From assembly GCA_963169215.1 (NCBI GenBank), contig CAUJEE010000024.1, forward strand, positions 1 through 43,537: 43,537 nt of DNA, given 5' to 3'. How positions within the stretch are numbered: the first letter of the stretch is position 1; each line of letters starts with the position of its first letter. Made by a program: the position numbers and the translations under genes. Shown here one piece after another: positions 13,271 through 38,660 of this stretch. The notes under the pieces are model-generated. The model saw only the letters and a list, made by a program, of their open reading frames with translations, ran no database searches and was not told the DNA's origin. The stretch comes from Actinomycetota bacterium (GTDB lineage: Bacteria > Actinomycetota > Acidimicrobiia > Acidimicrobiales > Ilumatobacteraceae).

Positions 13271-14215
13271 TCAGCGGTCGAGGGCGAAGAAGCGGACGGC
13301 GTTGTCGTACAGCACAGCGCGCTTGGTCTCCTCGCGGATGTCGAGTTCGAGGAACTCGGCCTTGCAGCGTTCGAGGCCCAGCCCGTTGGTGCCGAACAGC
13401 ACCTTGTCGCGGCCGCGCGACGAATCCATGAAGCGCACCAGCCGCTCGTCGAGGCTGTGCGGGTAGTAGGCGGAGATGTCGCCGTACACGTTGGGGTGGC
13501 GCCACAACATCGAGCACCACTCGTCGACCCACGGCCAGCCGGTGTGCGACAGGTTGATGCGCAGGTCGGGGAACTCGATCGCCACGTCGTCGGCCAGCAT
13601 CGGTCGGCCGCAGTCGGATGGCAGCACCTCGGCCGAGTGGCCCACCTGGAAGCCGACGGCGATGCCGAGCTCGACGCACTTCGCATAGAGCGGGTAGAAG
13701 CGGCGGTCGTTGGGGGGCAGGCCGTACGACAGTGGGTGGAACCACACGTAGCGGAACCCGAACTCCTTCACCGCCCGCTCCACCTCGGCCAGGCTGTCGG
13801 TGATGCGGAACGGGTCGTACGACGCGGTGCCGATGATCCGCCCGTCCGACTCGGCCACCGCCTCGGCGACCGCCTCGACCGGGTAGTTCATGATGAAGTC
13901 ACGGTGGTAGTAGTACGACCACATCTTCGTCGCGCACACCGAGACGTGCGTGTAACCGAGGGTGTCCATGTCGGCCAGGCACTCGGCCGTGGTGGCGTGC
14001 CCCGACAGCATCCCGGCGCCGCCCCTGCGCGCCGGACGGCCCTCGCGCTCTTGCTCGGCGGCCGGCGGACGCGGCTTGCTGATCGCCTTGAACGTGGTCT
14101 CGAGCATGATCTGGAACTCGCGGAACTCGAACGGGTTGCCGGCCAGTTGGCTGCGCACCTCGAGCAGGTGGTTCATCACGTCGATCGTGGGATAGGCGGT
14201 GAGGTCGGTGGTCAT
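13271..14215 (-). CDS. Amidohydrolase_2-family protein with degenerate metal site
   Basis: 314 residues, ATG 14215-14213. The fold is the ACMSD/amidohydrolase-2 TIM barrel: TIDVMNHLLEV at the start, FRYVWFHPLSYG, GFQVGHSAEV, INLSHTGWPWVDE and KVLFGTNGLG. Family members normally bind zinc through an N-terminal H-x-H, two later histidines and a final Asp. Here the first motif is M14-N-H16 and the final Asp is N277, while H193 and H224 remain. Two of the usual ligands are thus replaced. Either the reaction is metal-free (some decarboxylase or hydratase relatives) or the metal is held differently. Residues 48-70 are a charged, low-complexity insert. It lies inside the ligase/CoA-transferase/ACAD operon, 41 bases from the MaoC gene. 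Confidence 0.8.
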   Translation of the reverse strand: MTTDLTAYPTIDVMNHLLEVRSQLAGNPFEFREFQIMLETTFKAISKPRPPAAEQEREGRPARRGGAGMLSGHATTAECLADMDTLGYTHVSVCATKMWSYYYHRDFIMNYPVEAVAEAVAESDGRIIGTASYDPFRITDSLAEVERAVKEFGFRYVWFHPLSYGLPPNDRRFYPLYAKCVELGIAVGFQVGHSAEVLPSDCGRPMLADDVAIEFPDLRINLSHTGWPWVDEWCSMLWRHPNVYGDISAYYPHSLDERLVRFMDSSRGRDKVLFGTNGLGLERCKAEFLELDIREETKRAVLYDNAVRFFALDR

Positions 14216-29183: not shown

Positions 29184-29713
29184 CCCTCCGCGACGTCGAG
29201 GGCGTCGAGCAACCCGCTGTCATCGAGCGCTCCGGGCGCGTCGTCGTCCGCGTCGTCCGTGTCATCCGTGTCGGCCACACCGGCCGTCGCCCGCCGACTC
29301 GCGCTGCGGGCCGCGAGGCGGCTGAGGGCATCGCCGGTGGCACCCGGCTCGCGCTGGCGGCGCTTGCTCGGCGGCGGCACCTCGATCGTCGGCTCCTCCG
29401 GCACTGCCCGCCGACGGCCCACCAGCGAGAAGGCGAACAGCCGCCACAAGAAGCGCACGCCGCCGACGAGCAGCGTGCGATACAGCCGCCAGCGGTGCGG
29501 TGAGCGGTAGAGATACTCGACGATGCGCGGCTCGCGCAGCAGGGTGAGGAACTCGGTGAAGTCCGAGCCGCGCAGCGGCATGATGTACTCCCACACCACC
29601 GGCTCCTCGGTGTGGCCGCGCACATAGAGCAGGTCGCCGCTCTTCACTGCCTCGCCGTTGGCCAGGCGCAGGCTCACCGTGCGGTTGCCGAGACCTTTCG
29701 ACCAGAATTGCAT
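29180..29713 (-). CDS. WSKGLG-family small protein, paralogue 2
   Basis: 177 residues, ATG overlapping the FAD-enzyme stop (TGATG). Residues 1-100 align with the whole of the 33047-33442 protein: W-S-K-G-L-G near the start, a Y-x-x-P-L-R/R-V-T-L strand, T-E-F-L-T-L-L-R-E-P, and a hydrophobic stretch LLVGGVRFLWRLFAFSLVG interrupted by Arg, followed by R-R-R. The remaining 70 residues are a low-complexity tail rich in Arg/Ser then Asp (DTDDTDDADDDA). No known domain is recognised. A membrane-associated accessory protein for the neighbouring FAD enzyme is the best guess. Confidence 0.7.
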   Translation of the reverse strand: MQFWSKGLGNRTVSLRLANGEAVKSGDLLYVRGHTEEPVVWEYIMPLRGSDFTEFLTLLREPRIVEYLYRSPHRWRLYRTLLVGGVRFLWRLFAFSLVGRRRAVPEEPTIEVPPPSKRRQREPGATGDALSRLAARSASRRATAGVADTDDTDDADDDAPGALDDSGLLDALDVAEG

Positions 29714-31341
29714 CAGCCCACCAGTCCTTTCGCTCGCGCCTCGACCACGAAGTCGGGCTCTTTCCACCAGCGCTCGAGGCCGAGGTCGTCGGCGATCACC
29801 CCGGCGGCGTTGTAGCCCCCGGCGAGCAGCACCATGCCGCCCGGCCACACACTCGCGCCCGCGACGTAGAGGTTCTCGATCGGCGTGCGGTGGCTCGAGC
29901 AATCGATGTTCGGCCGGTTCGACAACATCTGCGTGGTCACGTACGCGCCGTGCTTGATCGAGCCACGCTTCATGTTCGGCAGCTTGGCCTCGATGTACGC
30001 CGGATGGTTGACGTAGTCGCGGATCACGGTGGCGTCGGCCAAGTTGGGCGCGTACTGCGCCCACAGGTCGAGGAAGCTGCGGCTGTAGCCGGCGGCGAGA
30101 TCGTCCCACGAACCGTCGGAGTGCTTGTAGGGCGCGAGCGTCTCGAAGCAGGCAACGGCCGAGTTGGGCTCGAGGTCGATCGGGGCCTGCATCGGATCGA
30201 GGTCGGTCAGCGTCATGCCCGCGCCCACCATCCCCACCCCGCCGCCGCGCACGAGGTCGATGTGCTCGAGCAGTTCGTCGACGGTCTCGACGCCCATGAT
30301 CTTCACCAGCGCCCGGTCGCACACCGGGTCGAACGCGGCCGCGGTGTGCACCGGGCGGCGGTCGAGCGCGTAGTGCACGTCGATCAGGCTGGTCGACTCC
30401 CACTCCCACGCCTTGGTCTGGTCGACGAGCGAACTCGACGCCTTGTTGCACACGTCCTCGCCCACCATCTCGAGGAAGGTGGTCTGCGGGTCGGTGGTGG
30501 CGACCACCTTCTTGGCCATGATCTCCTGACCGCTGGTCAGGCGCACGCCGATCGCGCGGGTGCCGTCGCACAGGATCTTGGCCACCGGGGCGGCACGCTC
30601 GAAGGTGACACCGTTGCGGTTGGCGAAGCGGGCCAGCGAGCCGGCCAGCTGGTGCGAGCCGTTGGCGATGATGCTCGCGTTCAGCAGCCGGTGGTAGAAG
30701 AGCGGCAGCAGGAATCCCAAACCGCCGTCGGGGTCCATGCCGTACATCGTGCCCAGGTAGAGGATCGCGGTGCGCAGCAACTCGCTCTCGAACCCGGTGT
30801 TGTCGAGCGTCTCGAGGAATGTCTCCTCGGCCATCTCGTTCACCAGTTCGCCGATCTCGCTCTGCTGGTACGACACCACCATGTCGAGCATCGGCATCGG
30901 CAGGGTGAAGGTGGCCGGGATCAGCGCCTCTTCCACCACCGCGTACCACTCCTGCATCACGTCGACGTAGCGCAACGCGTCGGCGGGGGAGAAGCGGGCG
31001 ATCGAGGCCGCAGTGCGCTCGATGTCGGGATACAGCGTCAACGCGCGCCCGTCGCGGGTGAAGATCGCGGCCGGCGCGTCCGGGTAGCGATAGCTGCAGC
31101 CCCAGCTCTCCAGTTCGAGATCGGTGTAGGCCGGGGCGCGGTCCATCATCATCATCAGCTTGGCGTGGGTGTTGAACCGGAAGCCCGACCACTCCTCGGT
31201 GATCAGACCACCGCCGAGCTCGTGATGCCGTTCGAGCAGCAGCACCTTGGCCCCGGCCTTGCTCAGGTAGCACGCGGTGAGCAGGCCGTTGGGCCCGCCA
31301 CCGATGATGATCACGTCGTATTCGCGGTCGAGAGTTGCCAT
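29713..31341 (-). CDS. Phytoene-desaturase-like FAD oxidoreductase
   Basis: 542 residues, ATG. The N-terminal FAD site is Y-D-V-I-I-I-G-G-G-P-N-G-L (residues 8-20), then V-L-L-L-E-R-H-H-E-L-G-G-G, and the C-terminal second nucleotide motif is N-L-Y-V-A-G-A-S-V-W-P-G-G. This is the CrtI/carotenoid-desaturase or amine-oxidase-like superfamily of all-alpha/beta flavoproteins. It desaturates or isomerises long hydrophobic chains using FAD (family knowledge). It lies between the second CrtI-like gene and its WSKGLG partner. It shares the fold and N-terminal block with 31357-33060 but is divergent elsewhere. Confidence 0.9.
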   Translation of the reverse strand: MATLDREYDVIIIGGGPNGLLTACYLSKAGAKVLLLERHHELGGGLITEEWSGFRFNTHAKLMMMMDRAPAYTDLELESWGCSYRYPDAPAAIFTRDGRALTLYPDIERTAASIARFSPADALRYVDVMQEWYAVVEEALIPATFTLPMPMLDMVVSYQQSEIGELVNEMAEETFLETLDNTGFESELLRTAILYLGTMYGMDPDGGLGFLLPLFYHRLLNASIIANGSHQLAGSLARFANRNGVTFERAAPVAKILCDGTRAIGVRLTSGQEIMAKKVVATTDPQTTFLEMVGEDVCNKASSSLVDQTKAWEWESTSLIDVHYALDRRPVHTAAAFDPVCDRALVKIMGVETVDELLEHIDLVRGGGVGMVGAGMTLTDLDPMQAPIDLEPNSAVACFETLAPYKHSDGSWDDLAAGYSRSFLDLWAQYAPNLADATVIRDYVNHPAYIEAKLPNMKRGSIKHGAYVTTQMLSNRPNIDCSSHRTPIENLYVAGASVWPGGMVLLAGGYNAAGVIADDLGLERWWKEPDFVVEARAKGLVG

Positions 31342-31356
31342 GTGCGGGTGTCCTGC

Positions 31357-33060
31357 CTACGGGATCGAAAAGCCGGTCTGGATGCCGCGGTCGGCGAGCG
31401 TCTGGCGGCCCGCTTCCAGCGCTCGGTGCCGCCACCACGTCTGTCCCTCGCGCACGCCGAGATCCTCGGCCACCACCGACGCGGCCACGTAGCCGGCGCC
31501 GAGTGTGGTTGTGCCGAAGGGCCAGATCGAGTTCGACAGGTACAGGTTGCCGAAGGGGGTGCGCGGTGCACCGCAACCGGGGAACGGGCGCGCCGTGCCG
31601 TACCACTGCAGGCCGACGCCGCCGCTGGTGGTGCTGCCCATCACCTGGCTCGGGTTCTTGCGGTAGTAGTCGAGCGGCGAGTTGCAGTAGCGGGCCACCA
31701 CCGAGTCCATCAGCCCGGGGTTGTACTCGCGCAACAGGGCGTCGACCTTGTCGCCGTAGCTCTCGCGGATGTTGTCCCACGACTGGCCGTCGGCCAGCTT
31801 GTAGGGCACGTTGGCCCAGGCCATCATCGTGTACTGGCCTTCAGGCGCCTGCGTCGGATCGGCCAGCGCGAACCCCTGCACCGACAACCCGCACACGATC
31901 GGTGGGTCGGGGAGGATGTCGTTCTCCATGCAGTGCTGCAGGCGCCTTACATCGGCGACGCTGTCGATCCCGAAGTTGAAGCCGTACGCGGTGTCGATGC
32001 CCTCCGGGTAGCCCTCCCAGTGCGGCGGGCGGTCGAGCACCCAGTAGTTGGCGAACAGCACGGTCTCGTCGTTCTTGTAGGCGTGCACCCCGTCGCGCAC
32101 CCAGTCGGGCAGCTTCTCCTCGCCGATCAGGCCGAGGAAGGTGGGGTGGCACGACAGGTTGGAGATCACCGCACGCTTGGCGCGCACCTCTGCCTCGGGG
32201 TAGGCCGCGTGCGGCGACAGCACGATGCCCTGCACCTCGTCGCCGTTCATCACGAACTTGTCGACCGGGCAGCCGGTGAACAGCCGCCCGCCGGCGGCGG
32301 CGAACGCCGAGCACAGCGCGTGCACCAGCGCGTGGCTGCCGCCGCGGCAGGTCCAGGTGACGCTCTGGGTGCATTGCAGCACCGGGAACACGATCGGCAT
32401 CAGCGCAGCCATGCCGCGCTCCCACGGATGCGACCCCGACATGATGCTGTTGGCGAGCACCGCGGCCCTGATCCGCTCGTCCTGGTAGACGGCTTCGGCC
32501 ATCTCGATGCCGCTCAGTTCGTGGGCGTTCTCGGGGATCTCCGGCACCAGCATGCGCAGCAGCGAGGCCAACCCGCCGGGGGCGGTGACGTCGTCGGGGC
32601 CCTGCGTGGGCACGGTGAACTGCGACTCGTGCAGCGAGGCGTCCATCATCGGGCCGAGCACGTTGTAGATCGTCTTGAACACTTCCGCGTCGTGCTCGTT
32701 GATCGTCTGCCACTGGGCGTAGGTCTCGCGAGCGTCGAACGAATGGAACATCACCGCCGAGCGATCGCGGAACGGGTGGAACATGCCCCAACTGCCGGAG
32801 GTGAGCATCTCCAGCCCGAAGCGCTCGAGCTCGAGGTCGCCGTAGGCCGGCGACCACATCGTCACCATGTTGCTCGCGCACAGGTTGACCTTCACCCCCG
32901 GGTGCATGACCTCCTCGGTGCAAGCCCCCGCGCCGGCTTCCAGCTTGCGCTCGAAGCACGCCACCTTGAGGCCCGACCGTTGCAGGTAGATGGCTGCGGT
33001 GAGGCCGTTGATGCCTCCGCCCACCACGACCACGTCGTACTCGCGATCAGGCCCGGCCAC
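31357..33060 (-). CDS. Phytoene-desaturase-like FAD oxidoreductase
   Basis: 567 residues from GTG at 33060, with GGAGG six bases upstream, chosen over longer frames that run into the preceding gene. The FAD site is Y-D-V-V-V-V-G-G-G-I-N-G-L (8-20), with V-A-C-F-E-R-K-L-E-A-G-A-G and a C-terminal N-L-Y-L-S-N-S-I-W-P-F-G-T. An unusual number of Cys (for example V-N-L-C-A-S-N, W-T-C-R-G-G-S-H and C-G-A-P-R-T-P) marks it. CrtI-like in overall plan. It probably acts on a hydrophobic, polyene- or ring-containing substrate; its exact reaction is unknown. Confidence 0.88.
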   Translation of the reverse strand: MAGPDREYDVVVVGGGINGLTAAIYLQRSGLKVACFERKLEAGAGACTEEVMHPGVKVNLCASNMVTMWSPAYGDLELERFGLEMLTSGSWGMFHPFRDRSAVMFHSFDARETYAQWQTINEHDAEVFKTIYNVLGPMMDASLHESQFTVPTQGPDDVTAPGGLASLLRMLVPEIPENAHELSGIEMAEAVYQDERIRAAVLANSIMSGSHPWERGMAALMPIVFPVLQCTQSVTWTCRGGSHALVHALCSAFAAAGGRLFTGCPVDKFVMNGDEVQGIVLSPHAAYPEAEVRAKRAVISNLSCHPTFLGLIGEEKLPDWVRDGVHAYKNDETVLFANYWVLDRPPHWEGYPEGIDTAYGFNFGIDSVADVRRLQHCMENDILPDPPIVCGLSVQGFALADPTQAPEGQYTMMAWANVPYKLADGQSWDNIRESYGDKVDALLREYNPGLMDSVVARYCNSPLDYYRKNPSQVMGSTTSGGVGLQWYGTARPFPGCGAPRTPFGNLYLSNSIWPFGTTTLGAGYVAASVVAEDLGVREGQTWWRHRALEAGRQTLADRGIQTGFSIP

Positions 33061-33442
33061 CGGCCACCTCCTGCAGTTCGTCGGTCGCGGCGATCTCAGC
33101 GTTGTGGTCGGTCGTGTCGTCCTGCGGCTCGGCCGGGCGCGGGCGGCGCACCAGCAGGCCGAGCGTGCGCACGGCGAACACCGTCGCGCTGCTGAGCGCG
33201 GTGCGCAGAATCCTGCCCCGCTCGGGGTCGACGGCCACGAAGCGCACCGTGTCGGGGCGCTGCAGAAGGGCGAGGAAGTCGGTGACATCCTCGCGGTCGA
33301 GCGTCACCCGGTAGTCCCAGTAGGTGGGGGCATGCATCACCCCACTGATGAAGAACTCCTGGCTGTCGGTTTCGAGTGACTCGCGCTCGGAGAGTGAGAG
33401 GCTCAGCACCCTCCTGCCCAGTCCTTTGGACCAGAGATCCAT
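33047..33442 (-). CDS. WSKGLG-family small protein, paralogue 1
   Basis: 131 residues, ATG, with GGGAGG eight bases upstream; its end overlaps the next gene by 14 bases. M-D-L-W-S-K-G-L-G-R-R opens it. T-Y-W-D-Y-R-V-T-L, V-T-D-F-L-A-L-L-Q-R-P and a membrane-like ILRTALSSATVFAVRTLGLLV with an internal Arg follow. It parallels the protein at 29180-29713 without that protein's acidic tail. First gene of the minus operon behind operator site D and a strong leader hairpin. Not recognised as a named family; a lipid- or membrane-associated partner of the CrtI-like enzymes is inferred. Confidence 0.72.
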   Translation of the reverse strand: MDLWSKGLGRRVLSLSLSERESLETDSQEFFISGVMHAPTYWDYRVTLDREDVTDFLALLQRPDTVRFVAVDPERGRILRTALSSATVFAVRTLGLLVRRPRPAEPQDDTTDHNAEIAATDELQEVAGGRA

Positions 33443-33745: not shown

Positions 33746-35116
33746 ATGAGACGACACGCCACCTTGGCCCTGGTGGCCGTTATCGCCATCGCTGGCGCAG
33801 CGTGCAGCGAAGAGCGAGTGACGGACGACACCCAGGACACGCAGGCGACCGTGGTCGGATCGACGGCACCCGGCGACACGACCGACGCGACCGGCACCAC
33901 CGCACCCGTCGAGTGCGAGGGGGCGACGGTGGTCGAGTGCATCAGCCCTGACACGACGTTCTTCGACCTGTATCCCGAAGCGGCGACGGCGGCCAGTGGC
34001 GAGCCGATCAAGATCGGATTGATCAACAACGAGACCGGGCCGGCGGCGGCCTTCCCCGAACTCACTCTCGGCGTGCGCGCCGGGGTCGACTTCATCAACA
34101 CCGAACTCGGTGGTGTCGATGGTCGCCCGCTCGAGTTGGTCACCTGCGACGTCGCCTTCTCCGGCACCGGCTCGCAGGCTTGTGGCCAGCAGATGGTCGA
34201 CGAAGGTGTGGTGGCGGTGCTCGGCGGCATCGACTTGTTCGACGACGCGGTCAACGTGCTCGAGGAGAACGAGATCCCCTACGTGGGTGGCATCCCGGTG
34301 AGCTTCGCTTCCGCCACCAGCCCGATCTCGTTCCAGTTCAGCGGCGGTTCGTGGGGCCAGAACCTCGGCCTGGTGCATCACATGGCCAACACTCTGAAGG
34401 CGGAGAAGGTGTCGATCATCTACGGCGACTTCGGCTCGGTGGCCGACGGCGCGCTGTGGGCCCGCGAGGCGCTGATCGGTCTCGGCCTCGAGCCGGGCAA
34501 CATCAAGATGGTGCCGATGTCGATCATTGTCGAGGACGTGCTCACCCCGCTCACGGTGGCCAACGAGAACGACCCCGACGCGATCCTGGTGCTCGTCGCC
34601 GACACCGGCTGCGTGCCTGCCTACGAGGCCGTGCGTGAGATCGGCATCACCGCGCAGACCTACTGGTCGGCGGGCTGCCTGCTCGATGCCATCACCCAGC
34701 AGGCCGGCGCGGAGAACCTCGAGGGCTACATCTACGGCCTGGAGAACGTCATCCAGGTTCCCGATCCGCCCGACACCGCGATGTGGACCGATGTCGTCGA
34801 CAAGTACGGCGCCGAAGGACTCGAAGCGGGGAGTTCGGCCGTCGTCGAGTTCCGTGCGCTGATGCACCTGTGGGCCGAGATGCGCGCCATCGGCGCCGAT
34901 GCGGTGACGCCCGCGTCGATCATCGACCAGTTCCGCAGCGCGGTCGATCGCCCCGGGTTCATGGGGCACTCGTACACCTGCGACGGCCAGCAGATGGGTG
35001 GCGAGTTGCAGGCGATCTGCGCGCCGCACCAGATCCTCGGGCAGATGCGTGACGGCGATCTGGTGCAGATCACAGACTGGATCGACGTCGGCGCGATCGC
35101 CGTGGCGCCGAAGTAG
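33746..35116 (+). CDS. Branched-chain-amino-acid-type ABC importer, substrate-binding lipoprotein
   Basis: 456 residues, ATG with GGGAGG upstream. The signal segment RHATLALVAVIAIAGAAC has lipobox A-G-A-A-C, followed by a Thr/Asp-rich linker. The periplasmic-binding fold (type I, LivJ-like) is seen in I-K-I-G-L-I-N-N-E-T-G, G-V-R-A-G-V-D-F-I-N and later L-G-G-I. The protein is extracytoplasmic and lipid-anchored. It starts the importer operon behind operator site E. In actinobacteria LivJ-type binders handle many aromatic or fatty acids as well as amino acids, so the ligand is probably the pathway substrate or a fragment (inference). Confidence 0.92.
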   Translation: MRRHATLALVAVIAIAGAACSEERVTDDTQDTQATVVGSTAPGDTTDATGTTAPVECEGATVVECISPDTTFFDLYPEAATAASGEPIKIGLINNETGPAAAFPELTLGVRAGVDFINTELGGVDGRPLELVTCDVAFSGTGSQACGQQMVDEGVVAVLGGIDLFDDAVNVLEENEIPYVGGIPVSFASATSPISFQFSGGSWGQNLGLVHHMANTLKAEKVSIIYGDFGSVADGALWAREALIGLGLEPGNIKMVPMSIIVEDVLTPLTVANENDPDAILVLVADTGCVPAYEAVREIGITAQTYWSAGCLLDAITQQAGAENLEGYIYGLENVIQVPDPPDTAMWTDVVDKYGAEGLEAGSSAVVEFRALMHLWAEMRAIGADAVTPASIIDQFRSAVDRPGFMGHSYTCDGQQMGGELQAICAPHQILGQMRDGDLVQITDWIDVGAIAVAPK

Positions 35117-35146: not shown

Positions 35147-35164
35147 AAGGAGCGACAACTCATT
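35147..35164 (+). promoter_or_regulatory. Ribosome site and ATT start of the fused permease
   Basis: AAGGAG at 35147-35152 is followed nine bases later by ATT at 35162. The frame from 35117 has no ATG, GTG or TTG until GTG at 35237, and using that would delete the first transmembrane helix. ATT is a rare bacterial start (known for infC). Confidence 0.5.
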
Positions 35165-37183
35165 CTCGACTACGTTGGCTACTTCCTCACCGGCCTAGGC
35201 GCGGGCAGCGTCATCGCGCTGCTCGCGCTCGGCCTCGTGCTCACCCACCGCGCGTCGGGCGTGATCAACTTCGCCCATGCCGCGCTCGGCATGTACGTGG
35301 CCTACGCCTACTACAAGCTGCGCCAGACCGGTGAGTTGGTGTTGCCGATCCTCGGTCTGCCCGACCGGGTGAAGATCGTCGATGCGCCGACGGTGTTCAC
35401 TGCCATGTCGGTGGCCGTGGCTCTGTCGGCGGTGCTCGGGTTGCTCGTCTACCTGCTCGTGTTCCGCTGGCTGCGCACCGCCCCGGCCCTCGCCCGTGTC
35501 GTTGCCTCGCTCGGCCTGCTGCTCTACTTCGTGGCCATCGTCAAGCTGCGTTTCGACCGCAGCGCCGGCCAGCTTCCACTGGGGGCGATCCTTCCCGCGG
35601 GCAGCGTCACCGTCTCCGGGGTTGCCGTGCCCTACAACCGTCTGATCCTCGCGGCGATCGCGCTCGCCGTGGCCACGGTGCTGGCAGTGGTGTTCAAGTT
35701 CACCCGCTTCGGGATGGCCACCCGAGCCGCGGCCGAGAACGAGAAGGGGGCGCTGATCGTCGGCCATTCGCCCGACAAGTTGGCGGTGGTCAACTGGACG
35801 GTTGCCTCCGTGCTCGCCGGTGTGTCGGTGATCTTCATCGCCTCGGTCACCAAGCAACTCGATCCGCTCTCCACCAGCCTGCTGGTGGTACCCGCCTTGG
35901 CCGCGGTGCTCGTCGGCGGGCTGCGCTCGTTCTTCGTCACCAGTTTCGCCGCGCTCACCATCGGCATGCTGCAGGCGGGCCTGCTCAACTACAGCACTCG
36001 TTCGACGTGGATTCCCAGCTGGCTGCCACGCAGCGGCCTCAACCATGCGCTGCCGTTCCTGGTGATCGTCATCGCCCTCACCGTGCGCGGTGCTTCGCTG
36101 CCGGGGCGCCACGAGATCCGCGAGTCGCGCCTGCCCTTCTCGCCGCGACCGCGCCACGTCGTGCCCGTGACGGTGGTGGGCGTGGGGCTCACCGCCGCCG
36201 GGCTGCTCACTCTCGACAGCCAGTGGCGGTTGGCGATCGTCGTGTCGCTGATCGCCTCCTTGATCGCCCTGTCGAGCGTGGTGCTCACCGGCTATGTGGG
36301 GCAGATCTCGCTGGCCCAGTACGCGTTTGCCGGGCTGGCCGGCTTCGTCACCGCCAAGCTCACCGAAGCCCGCGGCATCCCCTTCCCGTGGGCGCCATTG
36401 ATCGCGGTGGCACTCACCACCTTGTGCGGTGTGCTGGTTGGCCTACCCGCGGCGCGCGTGCGCGGCCTGGTGCTGGCGGTTGTCACCGTCGGCGCGGCCG
36501 TGGCGATCGAGAACCTCGCGTTCAAGTCGGAAGCACTCGGCGGCCTCGGCCGCGTGCAGATCGATCGCCCCGAGCTGTTCGGCCTCGACCTCGGCTTCTC
36601 GGCCAAGGGCGCCGACAACTTCCGCGCCGAGTTCGGCATCTTCGTGCTCATCGTGGTCGCCTGCTCGTTCATCGCGATTGCCAACTTGCGGCGCAGCCCC
36701 ACCGGCCTGCGCTGGCTGGCGGTGCGCGCCAACGAGCGCGCTGCTGCGGCGTGCGGCATCAATGTCACCTCGATGAAGCTGGAGGCGTTCGCCGTCTCGT
36801 CGATGCTCGCCGGCATGGGCGGTGTGTTGCTCGCCTACCGCGGTTCGCTGGCCCCCGAGTCGTTCGCGGTGTTCGGCGCGTTGGCGCTGTTGGCCGTCAC
36901 CTATCTCGGTGGTATCGCCAGCATCACCGGTGCGCTGCTGGCCGGCGTGCTGTTCAGCGGTGGCATCCTCACCCATGTGAGCGGCGGCACCACGGGCGGC
37001 ACCTCCGACACCGCGTTCGCGGTGAGCGGCCTGGCGTTGGTGATCGCCGCAGTGCGCACCCCCGATGGGGTGGTCGGCTTCTTCCGACGGCGTGGAGCGG
37101 GGGCCGGTATGCGGTTGCGGGCGCGGGCCGCGACCGGCGACGGCGACTCCTCGGCGATGGCCGGTTCGGTGGAGGCGCGATGA
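35162..37183 (+). CDS. Fused LivH-LivM type ABC permease
   Basis: 673 residues if translation begins at ATT 35162. The first half (about 1-295) is a LivH-like permease beginning LDYVGYFLTGLGAGSVIALLA and ASGVINFAHAALGMYVAY. The second (about 330-640) is LivM-like with LVLTGYVGQISLAQYAFAGLAGF (in part), then RWLAVRANERAAAACGI as the EAA-type coupling loop. Hydrophobic segments in both halves suggest 16-18 membrane helices, so both permease chains are in one polypeptide. A positively charged linker (PGRHEIRESRLPFSPRPRH) separates them. The stop overlaps the ATP-binding gene (ATGA). An internal GTG at 35237 is the alternative start. Confidence 0.85.
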   Translation: MLDYVGYFLTGLGAGSVIALLALGLVLTHRASGVINFAHAALGMYVAYAYYKLRQTGELVLPILGLPDRVKIVDAPTVFTAMSVAVALSAVLGLLVYLLVFRWLRTAPALARVVASLGLLLYFVAIVKLRFDRSAGQLPLGAILPAGSVTVSGVAVPYNRLILAAIALAVATVLAVVFKFTRFGMATRAAAENEKGALIVGHSPDKLAVVNWTVASVLAGVSVIFIASVTKQLDPLSTSLLVVPALAAVLVGGLRSFFVTSFAALTIGMLQAGLLNYSTRSTWIPSWLPRSGLNHALPFLVIVIALTVRGASLPGRHEIRESRLPFSPRPRHVVPVTVVGVGLTAAGLLTLDSQWRLAIVVSLIASLIALSSVVLTGYVGQISLAQYAFAGLAGFVTAKLTEARGIPFPWAPLIAVALTTLCGVLVGLPAARVRGLVLAVVTVGAAVAIENLAFKSEALGGLGRVQIDRPELFGLDLGFSAKGADNFRAEFGIFVLIVVACSFIAIANLRRSPTGLRWLAVRANERAAAACGINVTSMKLEAFAVSSMLAGMGGVLLAYRGSLAPESFAVFGALALLAVTYLGGIASITGALLAGVLFSGGILTHVSGGTTGGTSDTAFAVSGLALVIAAVRTPDGVVGFFRRRGAGAGMRLRARAATGDGDSSAMAGSVEAR

Positions 37184-37938
37184 GCAACGAGCCGCTGCTC
37201 GATGTGAGCTTGCTCAGCGTCACCTTCGGCGGGGTGCGTGCTGTCGACGATGTGTCGTTCGCCGTCGGCGAGAGCGAGCTGGTCGGTCTGATCGGACCCA
37301 ACGGCGCGGGCAAGACCACTTGCATCGATGCGCTCAGCGGGTTCGTGCCCAACGCCGCCGGACGGGTGACGTTCGAGGGACGCGACATCAGCAACTGGCC
37401 GGCTCACCGGCGGGCACGCGCCGGAATCGTGCGCACCTTCCAATCGGTCGAGCTGTTCGAGGATCTCACCCTCAACGAAAACCTGGTGGTGGCCGCCACC
37501 GATGCCAAGTGGTGGTCGCCGTTGGCCGACGCGGTGTGGCCGCGGCGCGGGTGGAGCGACGACATCGAGTGGGCGCTGGAAGCGGTCGGGCTGCAGGGCA
37601 AGGGCGAGTTGTTCCCCACCGAACTTGCACCCGGGTCGAGCCGCCTGGCCGCGCTGGCCCGCGCCCTGGTGCGCCGTCCGCGGCTGATCCTGCTCGACGA
37701 GCCGGCCGCCGGGCTGAACACCTACGAGACGGAGATGCTCGCCGATCGCCTGCGTGCGCTGCCGCCGCTGGGTGTGTCGGTGCTGCTCATCGACCACGAC
37801 ACCAGCCTGGTGTTCGGCACCTGTGGCACGGTGCACGTACTCGACTTCGGCCGGGTGATCTCCTCGGGTCCACCGGCGGTCGTGCGCGCCGACCCGGCGG
37901 TGATCGAGGCCTACCTCGGGACGGTGACCGAACCATGA
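37180..37938 (+). CDS. livG: ABC transporter ATP-binding protein, LivG type
   Basis: 252 residues, ATG overlapping the permease stop. Walker A G-P-N-G-A-G-K-T at 39-46, Q-loop Q88, Walker B L-I-L-L-D-E-P at 169-175 and switch H206 are intact. The signature that normally reads like L-S-Y-G-Q or L-S-G-G-Q is L-A-P-G-S-S (149-154), so this ATPase may rely on its partner's signature. In an asymmetric heterodimer with LivF this leaves one degenerate site. It powers the fused permease. The next gene starts inside its stop. Confidence 0.9.
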   Translation: MSNEPLLDVSLLSVTFGGVRAVDDVSFAVGESELVGLIGPNGAGKTTCIDALSGFVPNAAGRVTFEGRDISNWPAHRRARAGIVRTFQSVELFEDLTLNENLVVAATDAKWWSPLADAVWPRRGWSDDIEWALEAVGLQGKGELFPTELAPGSSRLAALARALVRRPRLILLDEPAAGLNTYETEMLADRLRALPPLGVSVLLIDHDTSLVFGTCGTVHVLDFGRVISSGPPAVVRADPAVIEAYLGTVTEP

Positions 37939-38660
37939 GCACGTTGCTGGAACTGCGCGGCGTCGAGACCGGGTACCACGGCGTGCCCGTGGTGCACGAC
38001 CTCGACCTCACCGTCGGCGAGGGTGAGGTCGTCGCCTTGCTCGGCGCCAACGGCGCGGGCAAGACCACCGTGCTCAACACCATCGCCGGTCTCGTGCCCC
38101 GCACGGGTGGCTCGCTCAGCGTGCTCGGCGCGCCGGTGTCGAGCCGTCAACGCGGTGCGCAGCGGCGCACCCTCGACGTGGTCCGCCGCGGCGTGGGGTA
38201 CGTGCCCGAAGACAGGGCGCTATTCTACGACCTCACTGCGATCGAGAACGTGCGGCTCGCTGCCGCCCGCCGCGATCGTGCCGCTGTGGCCGCGGCACTC
38301 GACCTGTTCCCCGCGCTCGCCCCGCTCACCGGGCGCGCCGCCGGGCTGCTGTCGGGCGGCGAGCAGCAGATGCTCGCGGTGGCGCGTGCCCTTGCGGCGC
38401 GTCCGCGGCTGTTGATGATCGACGAGATGAGCCTCGGGTTGGCGCCGATCATCGCCGAGCGGCTGCTCGCCTCGATCCGCAAGATCGCCGACGACACCGG
38501 CACCGGCATCCTGCTCGTCGAGCAACAGGTCGGTGCTGTGCTGCGCGTGGCCGATCGCGCTTACCTGTTGCGTCGCGGCCGAGTGGTGGTCGAAGGGCGC
38601 GCCGCCGACCTGCGCGCCCGGCCCGATCTGCTGGCATCGAGCTACCTGGGGAGTGGCTAG
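37935..38660 (+). CDS. livF: ABC transporter ATP-binding protein, LivF type
   Basis: 241 residues, ATG overlapping the LivG stop. Walker A G-A-N-G-A-G-K-T at 37-44, signature L-S-G-G-E at 139-143, Walker B ending M-I-D-E at 161-164, and a C-terminal V-E-Q-Q typical of LivF. Fully canonical, in contrast to the LivG partner. The two ATPases form the motor of the importer at the inner face of the membrane. Confidence 0.93.
   Translation: MSTLLELRGVETGYHGVPVVHDLDLTVGEGEVVALLGANGAGKTTVLNTIAGLVPRTGGSLSVLGAPVSSRQRGAQRRTLDVVRRGVGYVPEDRALFYDLTAIENVRLAAARRDRAAVAAALDLFPALAPLTGRAAGLLSGGEQQMLAVARALAARPRLLMIDEMSLGLAPIIAERLLASIRKIADDTGTGILLVEQQVGAVLRVADRAYLLRRGRVVVEGRAADLRARPDLLASSYLGSG

Follow-up and report, generated by a model that had tools for sequence, protein, structure and literature searches.

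Few bacterial genes are known to keep start codons other than ATG, GTG or TTG, and N-termini are misassigned because gene finders ignore such codons. Binns and Masters are said to have reported in 2002 that the AUU start of E. coli pcnB limits translation. In Streptomyces, infC starts with ATC and sigR with GTC; replacing that GTC by ATG, GTG or TTG leads to overproduction of SigR, and sigR is derepressed in infC mutants (PMC5472188). In S. aureus, cvfC1 (AUU) and ccpN (AUA) have conserved near-cognate starts behind long Shine–Dalgarno sequences, with a yield below that of AUG (PMC13009471). Among 61,358 ancestral AUG starts one became AUU, as did one of 5,080 GUG starts (PMC5622118).

We analysed a stretch of 43,537 nucleotides (hereafter, the window) containing a fused LivH–LivM permease gene that, on our best reading of the sequence, joins this small group of conserved non-canonical starts of the infC, pcnB and sigR kind: it has no canonical start, a rare codon conserved in position and a Shine–Dalgarno site at the proper spacing. 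The AUU of pcnB is also the start in the window, but pcnB encodes a poly(A) polymerase and not a transporter. Like infC (AUU, AUC or AUA), which occurs in the same genomes, the permease gene has a near-cognate start without a canonical alternative, conserved across species; however, the product of infC is IF3 itself, hence its self-regulation, whereas the permease is not known to take part in initiation. The likeness to sigR lies in an actinobacterial gene with a non-canonical start, a strong Shine–Dalgarno site and an operon in which product ratio matters; sigR differs in using GTC rather than ATC or ATT, in encoding a sigma factor, in being conserved within Streptomyces only and in having been proven by Edman sequencing and mutation (PMC5472188). 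The starts of cvfC1 and ccpN are conserved near-cognate codons as in the permease, but these genes do not encode transporters, and the permease Shine–Dalgarno sites are good without being uniformly extended (compared with PMC13009471). Our literature search, to which subscription papers were mostly inaccessible, found no report of a rare start in a transporter permease; such a start, with many natural switches, is unusual.

The permease start in the window

By its domain content, the transporter operon of the window is of HAAT type (Liv) and consists of livK, the fused LivH–LivM gene, livG and livF. Two BPD_transp_2 regions lie in one protein, whose operon also encodes two ATPases and a binding protein. 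The two halves of the permease match LivH- and LivM-type models below cut-off. All NCBIfam models that match it likewise stay below their own cut-offs, leaving branched-chain amino acids, urea or other compounds as substrate candidates. The features are as follows.

33746–35116, forward strand: livK, periplasmic binding protein, ATG start (Pfam Peripla_BP_6, E = 3.3e-35)
35147–35152, forward strand: Shine–Dalgarno site AAGGAG, read directly, 9 nt 5′ of the start codon
35162–35164, forward strand: very probable ATT start codon of the fused permease, homologous to ATG, GTG or TTG in 58/112 orthologues and to ATC in 32/112
35162–37183, forward strand: fused LivH–LivM permease, 673 amino acids (Pfam BPD_transp_2, PF02653, two stretches, E = 1.4e-50)
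35237–35239, forward strand: first in-frame GTG, rejected as start because 25 residues with a conserved coding pattern would be lost
37180–37938, forward strand: livG, ATPase, ATG start (Pfam ABC_tran and BCA_ABC_TP_C), overlapping the permease stop by 4 nt
37935–38660, forward strand: livF, ATPase, ATG start (Pfam ABC_tran)

Direct reading gives AAGGAG at 35147–35152 on the forward strand, the 9-nt spacer CGACAACTC at 35153–35161 and then ATT at 35162–35164, the arrangement from which the initial annotation had proposed an ATT start. The best duplex of this site with the 16S tail reaches −7.5 kcal/mol, a value equalled at 0% of 60 positions within the same gene. From the TAG that ends livK (35114–35116), the permease frame runs uninterrupted to TGA at 37181–37183, the latter overlapping the livG start as ATGA. 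No ATG, GTG or TTG occurs in frame between the livK stop and ATT 35162, and the first canonical codon 3′ of the ATT is GTG 35237; the frame thus reads as first described. The residues after the ATT had been called a normal LivH N-terminus, in agreement with the Pfam match to BPD_transp_2, which begins at residue 8 of the ATT-started protein and at profile position 2. Since the domain begins there, a start at GTG 35237 (residue 26) would cut into it; the initial annotation had foreseen the loss of part of the first membrane helix. Taken with the orthologues below, this makes it very probable that translation of the fused permease truly begins at ATT 35162.

Conservation among orthologues

Relatives were searched in 61 genomes of relatives, 397 genomes of the order, three families, 395 genomes of the class and 396 of the phylum; an additional protein scan of named genome contigs yielded three loci only. 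At each locus we read the codon homologous to the window ATT (offset 0), and the codon itself played no part in choosing loci or position. Dropping L072 and L096, whose N-termini were unaligned, and the duplicates L058, L080, L110 and L118 reduced 118 loci to 112 distinct ones, nearly all from Acidimicrobiia. Ten further loci from the phylum search (37–45% identity) came later and stand outside the 112; they have no clear rare start, and the starts of two (L190 and L193) are not judgeable.

A canonical codon stands exactly at the position of the ATT in 58 of the 112 loci (ATG 28, GTG 24, TTG 6) and nearby, between −45 and +12 nt, in another 19. The remaining 35 have none, and their codon at offset 0 is ATC in 32, CTG in 2 and ATT in the window. 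The comparison with orthologues that the initial annotation had named as a check therefore strongly supports the apparent ATT start. Near-cognate placement exceeds chance, because ATT, ATC, ATA or CTG occupies offset 0 in 35/35 of these loci and the codon offsets −12 to −1 in only 0–3/35; chance placement was rejected on this count. In 29/35, the previous stop is reached without any canonical codon before the rare one. Five loci with ATC or ATT at offset 0 were counted as canonical (L047, L079, L035, L060 and L061). The last three, close relatives, have a GTG directly 5′ of an ATT at the homologous start; possibly a GTG was added and took over from ATT, or the change ran the other way.

These data bear on two readings that would set the ATT aside. 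The draft genome comprises 249 contigs, a single one of which makes up the window, and a base could have been lost or miscalled in a gene whose real start is canonical, as the initial annotation had allowed. The frame is intact on both sides of the ATT, however, and ATC stands at the same codon in 32 other loci from separate assemblies, which refutes an error for the clade and makes it barely credible here; in the nearest relative (L057, JAOSJL010000001.1, 69–71% identical) the sequence is AAAGGAGCAGGTA-ATC, with AAAGGAG before the ATC. Translation could instead begin at GTG 35237, the first canonical codon, and yield a permease without its first 25 residues. Against this, ten disjoint pairs of rare-start relatives show, by codon position, 80/94/83 differences over the 45 nt upstream, with no codon pattern, and 33/15/96 in codons 2–25, a clear coding pattern; the rare codon thus marks the onset of coding conservation. 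The place of the next canonical codon is not conserved either, ranging from +21 to +123 in the 35 loci, so that starting there would cost the protein between 7 and 41 residues, according to species. With canonical starts exactly at offset 0 in more than half of the orthologues, we reject the downstream start as extremely improbable.

Phylogeny and Shine–Dalgarno strength

A FastTree phylogeny of 110 rows was built with the start residue left out; L023 and L044, which have a stop at offset 0 and ATG next, were excluded. All 35 rare rows fall within one clade of 68 rows (support 100), and none of the 42 rows outside it is rare. The rare or canonical label changes 10 times on the tree (at least 7 times on well-supported branches), compared with 30 times when labels are shuffled. 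Some subclades are wholly ATC (10/10 rows in one) and others wholly canonical. With 33/68 rows counting as canonical, the near-cognate start is, as far as these sequences tell, not required within the clade. Because orthologues carry a near-cognate codon at the same position, the rare start reflects neither the loss of a base nor an isolated case; it appears as a maintained feature of an Acidimicrobiia permease clade over long divergence, nearly always as ATC and here as ATT.

Within the clade, pairing with the 16S tail averages −6.5 kcal/mol at rare starts (n = 35) and −3.6 kcal/mol at canonical ones (n = 32), a difference with a Mann–Whitney p of 1.9e-5 when kinship is ignored. Paired by kinship, 7 supported independent pairs are available, of which on average 5.1 agree and 0.4 disagree, and the median p of 0.0625 (threshold −5) is not significant. 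The exchange between start codon and ribosome site is thus a trend that does not reach significance when kinship is taken into account. Sites at or below −5 kcal/mol are found in 30/35 rare members; four have weak sites (L031, L032, L092 and, by percentile, L082).

Neighbouring genes and infC

As controls we read the neighbouring genes at 41 wider loci, comprising the 35 rare-start members (window included) and a further six relatives whose starts are canonical or ambiguous. A canonical codon lies within 45 nt of the homologous livG start in 29/29 loci in which livG was located, and livF is canonical in 28/29, the one miss being a partial alignment. By the same ±45-nt criterion, 29/35 rare permeases still have no canonical codon. 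The data do not support ATC starts as a habit of whole genomes, as livG and livF of the same operons are canonical, and likewise all 42 homologues outside the clade. livK, canonical within 45 nt in 36/41, is a poor control: its exceptions are partial alignments (L142, L144) or have a misaligned signal peptide or ambiguous start (L131, L135, L138). The livK frame of L138 has no canonical codon from the preceding stop up to the aligned start; that of L135 has only one, far upstream. In one ATC subclade (family f19; L143 and L145–L153), the retrieved sequence surrounding the permease contains livK, but no relative of livG or livF was found in it.

infC, the positive control, was found in 39/40 of these genomes. 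We fetched 30 of the 39 matches (L158–L187), of which 26 were readable and L168, L172, L175 and L179 remained unread with the motif unmatched. All 26 readable loci have a near-cognate infC start (ATA 19, ATC 6, CTG 1), and in 19/26 the frame contains no canonical codon as far back as the preceding stop. The infC start is ATA both in the bin of the window (L163) and in the nearest relative (L162).

Possible role of the rare start

In the mechanism that we propose, the Shine–Dalgarno site would recruit the ribosome, whereas initiation at AUC or AUU would be inefficient, being discriminated against by initiation factor IF3. The permease would then be made in smaller amount than the binding protein, and LivG output would probably be lowered too, through the ATGA overlap. 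We think it probable that the start is real, conserved and lowers initiation. With the same degree of confidence, the rare codon may be seen as a translational throttle on the permease relative to livK, perhaps with LivG following, because established near-cognate starts lower initiation under IF3 discrimination. That IF3 discriminates the permease start would, by the same analogy, be an even bet. A low permease level through the rare start, already suggested by the initial annotation, is plausible and would fit the known cases; for the permease we infer the use of initiator Met-tRNA, the low yield, and the IF3 dependence and its reason.

A rare codon that is real but has drifted, neutral or slightly harmful, in a weakly expressed gene would need no regulatory role, and the 33 canonical rows among 68 and the roughly ten label changes on the tree speak for such drift. 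We nevertheless regard it as rather unlikely: elsewhere, starts have switched to such codons only very rarely (PMC5622118), whole subclades hold ATC (all ten rows in the one noted above) even though a canonical codon is a single mutation away, and rare starts accompany stronger Shine–Dalgarno sites, as a trend after kinship pairing. Ribosomes finishing livK might also reinitiate on the permease, giving the identity of its start codon little weight, as the often short gap between the livK stop and the permease start would permit. The CTG-start permeases L129 and L156 (the same genes as L031 and L071) overlap the livK stop by 4 nt (CTGA), which suggests that these two may use reinitiation instead. 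For the clade, such coupling is quite improbable, since the gap varies, from 8 to 96 nt in the majority of ATC loci and measuring 45 nt in the window, and since a separate Shine–Dalgarno site serves the permease in most ATC members.

A broader but more doubtful possibility is that Acidimicrobiia have a class-wide IF3-responsive transporter. Through IF3 level and AUC or AUU initiation, the amount of LivHM, and by way of the overlap that of LivG, would follow the state of the translation apparatus, and lineages would alternate repeatedly between a rare codon with a strong site and a canonical codon with a weak site, at similar output. An IF3-responsive LivHM would then offer naturally replicated experiments, in series, on the throttling of translation by the start codon. 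With ATC in one permease clade of many species and canonical codons in relatives, the purpose of a weak start becomes testable by comparison and simple reporters.

Origin of the contig

Window genes 29713–31341 and 13271–14215 are 83% and 87% identical to genes of the MAG that holds the nearest permease relative (G560, JAOSJL010000001.1), which belongs to the same class as the bin of the window but lies outside its order; within the genus of the bin itself, their best matches reach 29% and 36% identity. The G560 counterparts lie within about 25 kb of its permease copy, and together 13271–14215, 29713–31341 and 35162–37183 are 70–87% identical to this neighbourhood. Because the genes are much closer to those of G560 than to the bin's own genus, the contig would be either a large horizontally acquired island or misbinned. 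The start-codon result is unaffected by this choice, because both possible hosts have an infC with an ATA start. Divergent to the transporter operon, on the reverse strand at 29713–33288, the window encodes two CrtO/CrtI-like FAD oxidoreductases, and two homologues of these sit a few kb from the permease in G560.
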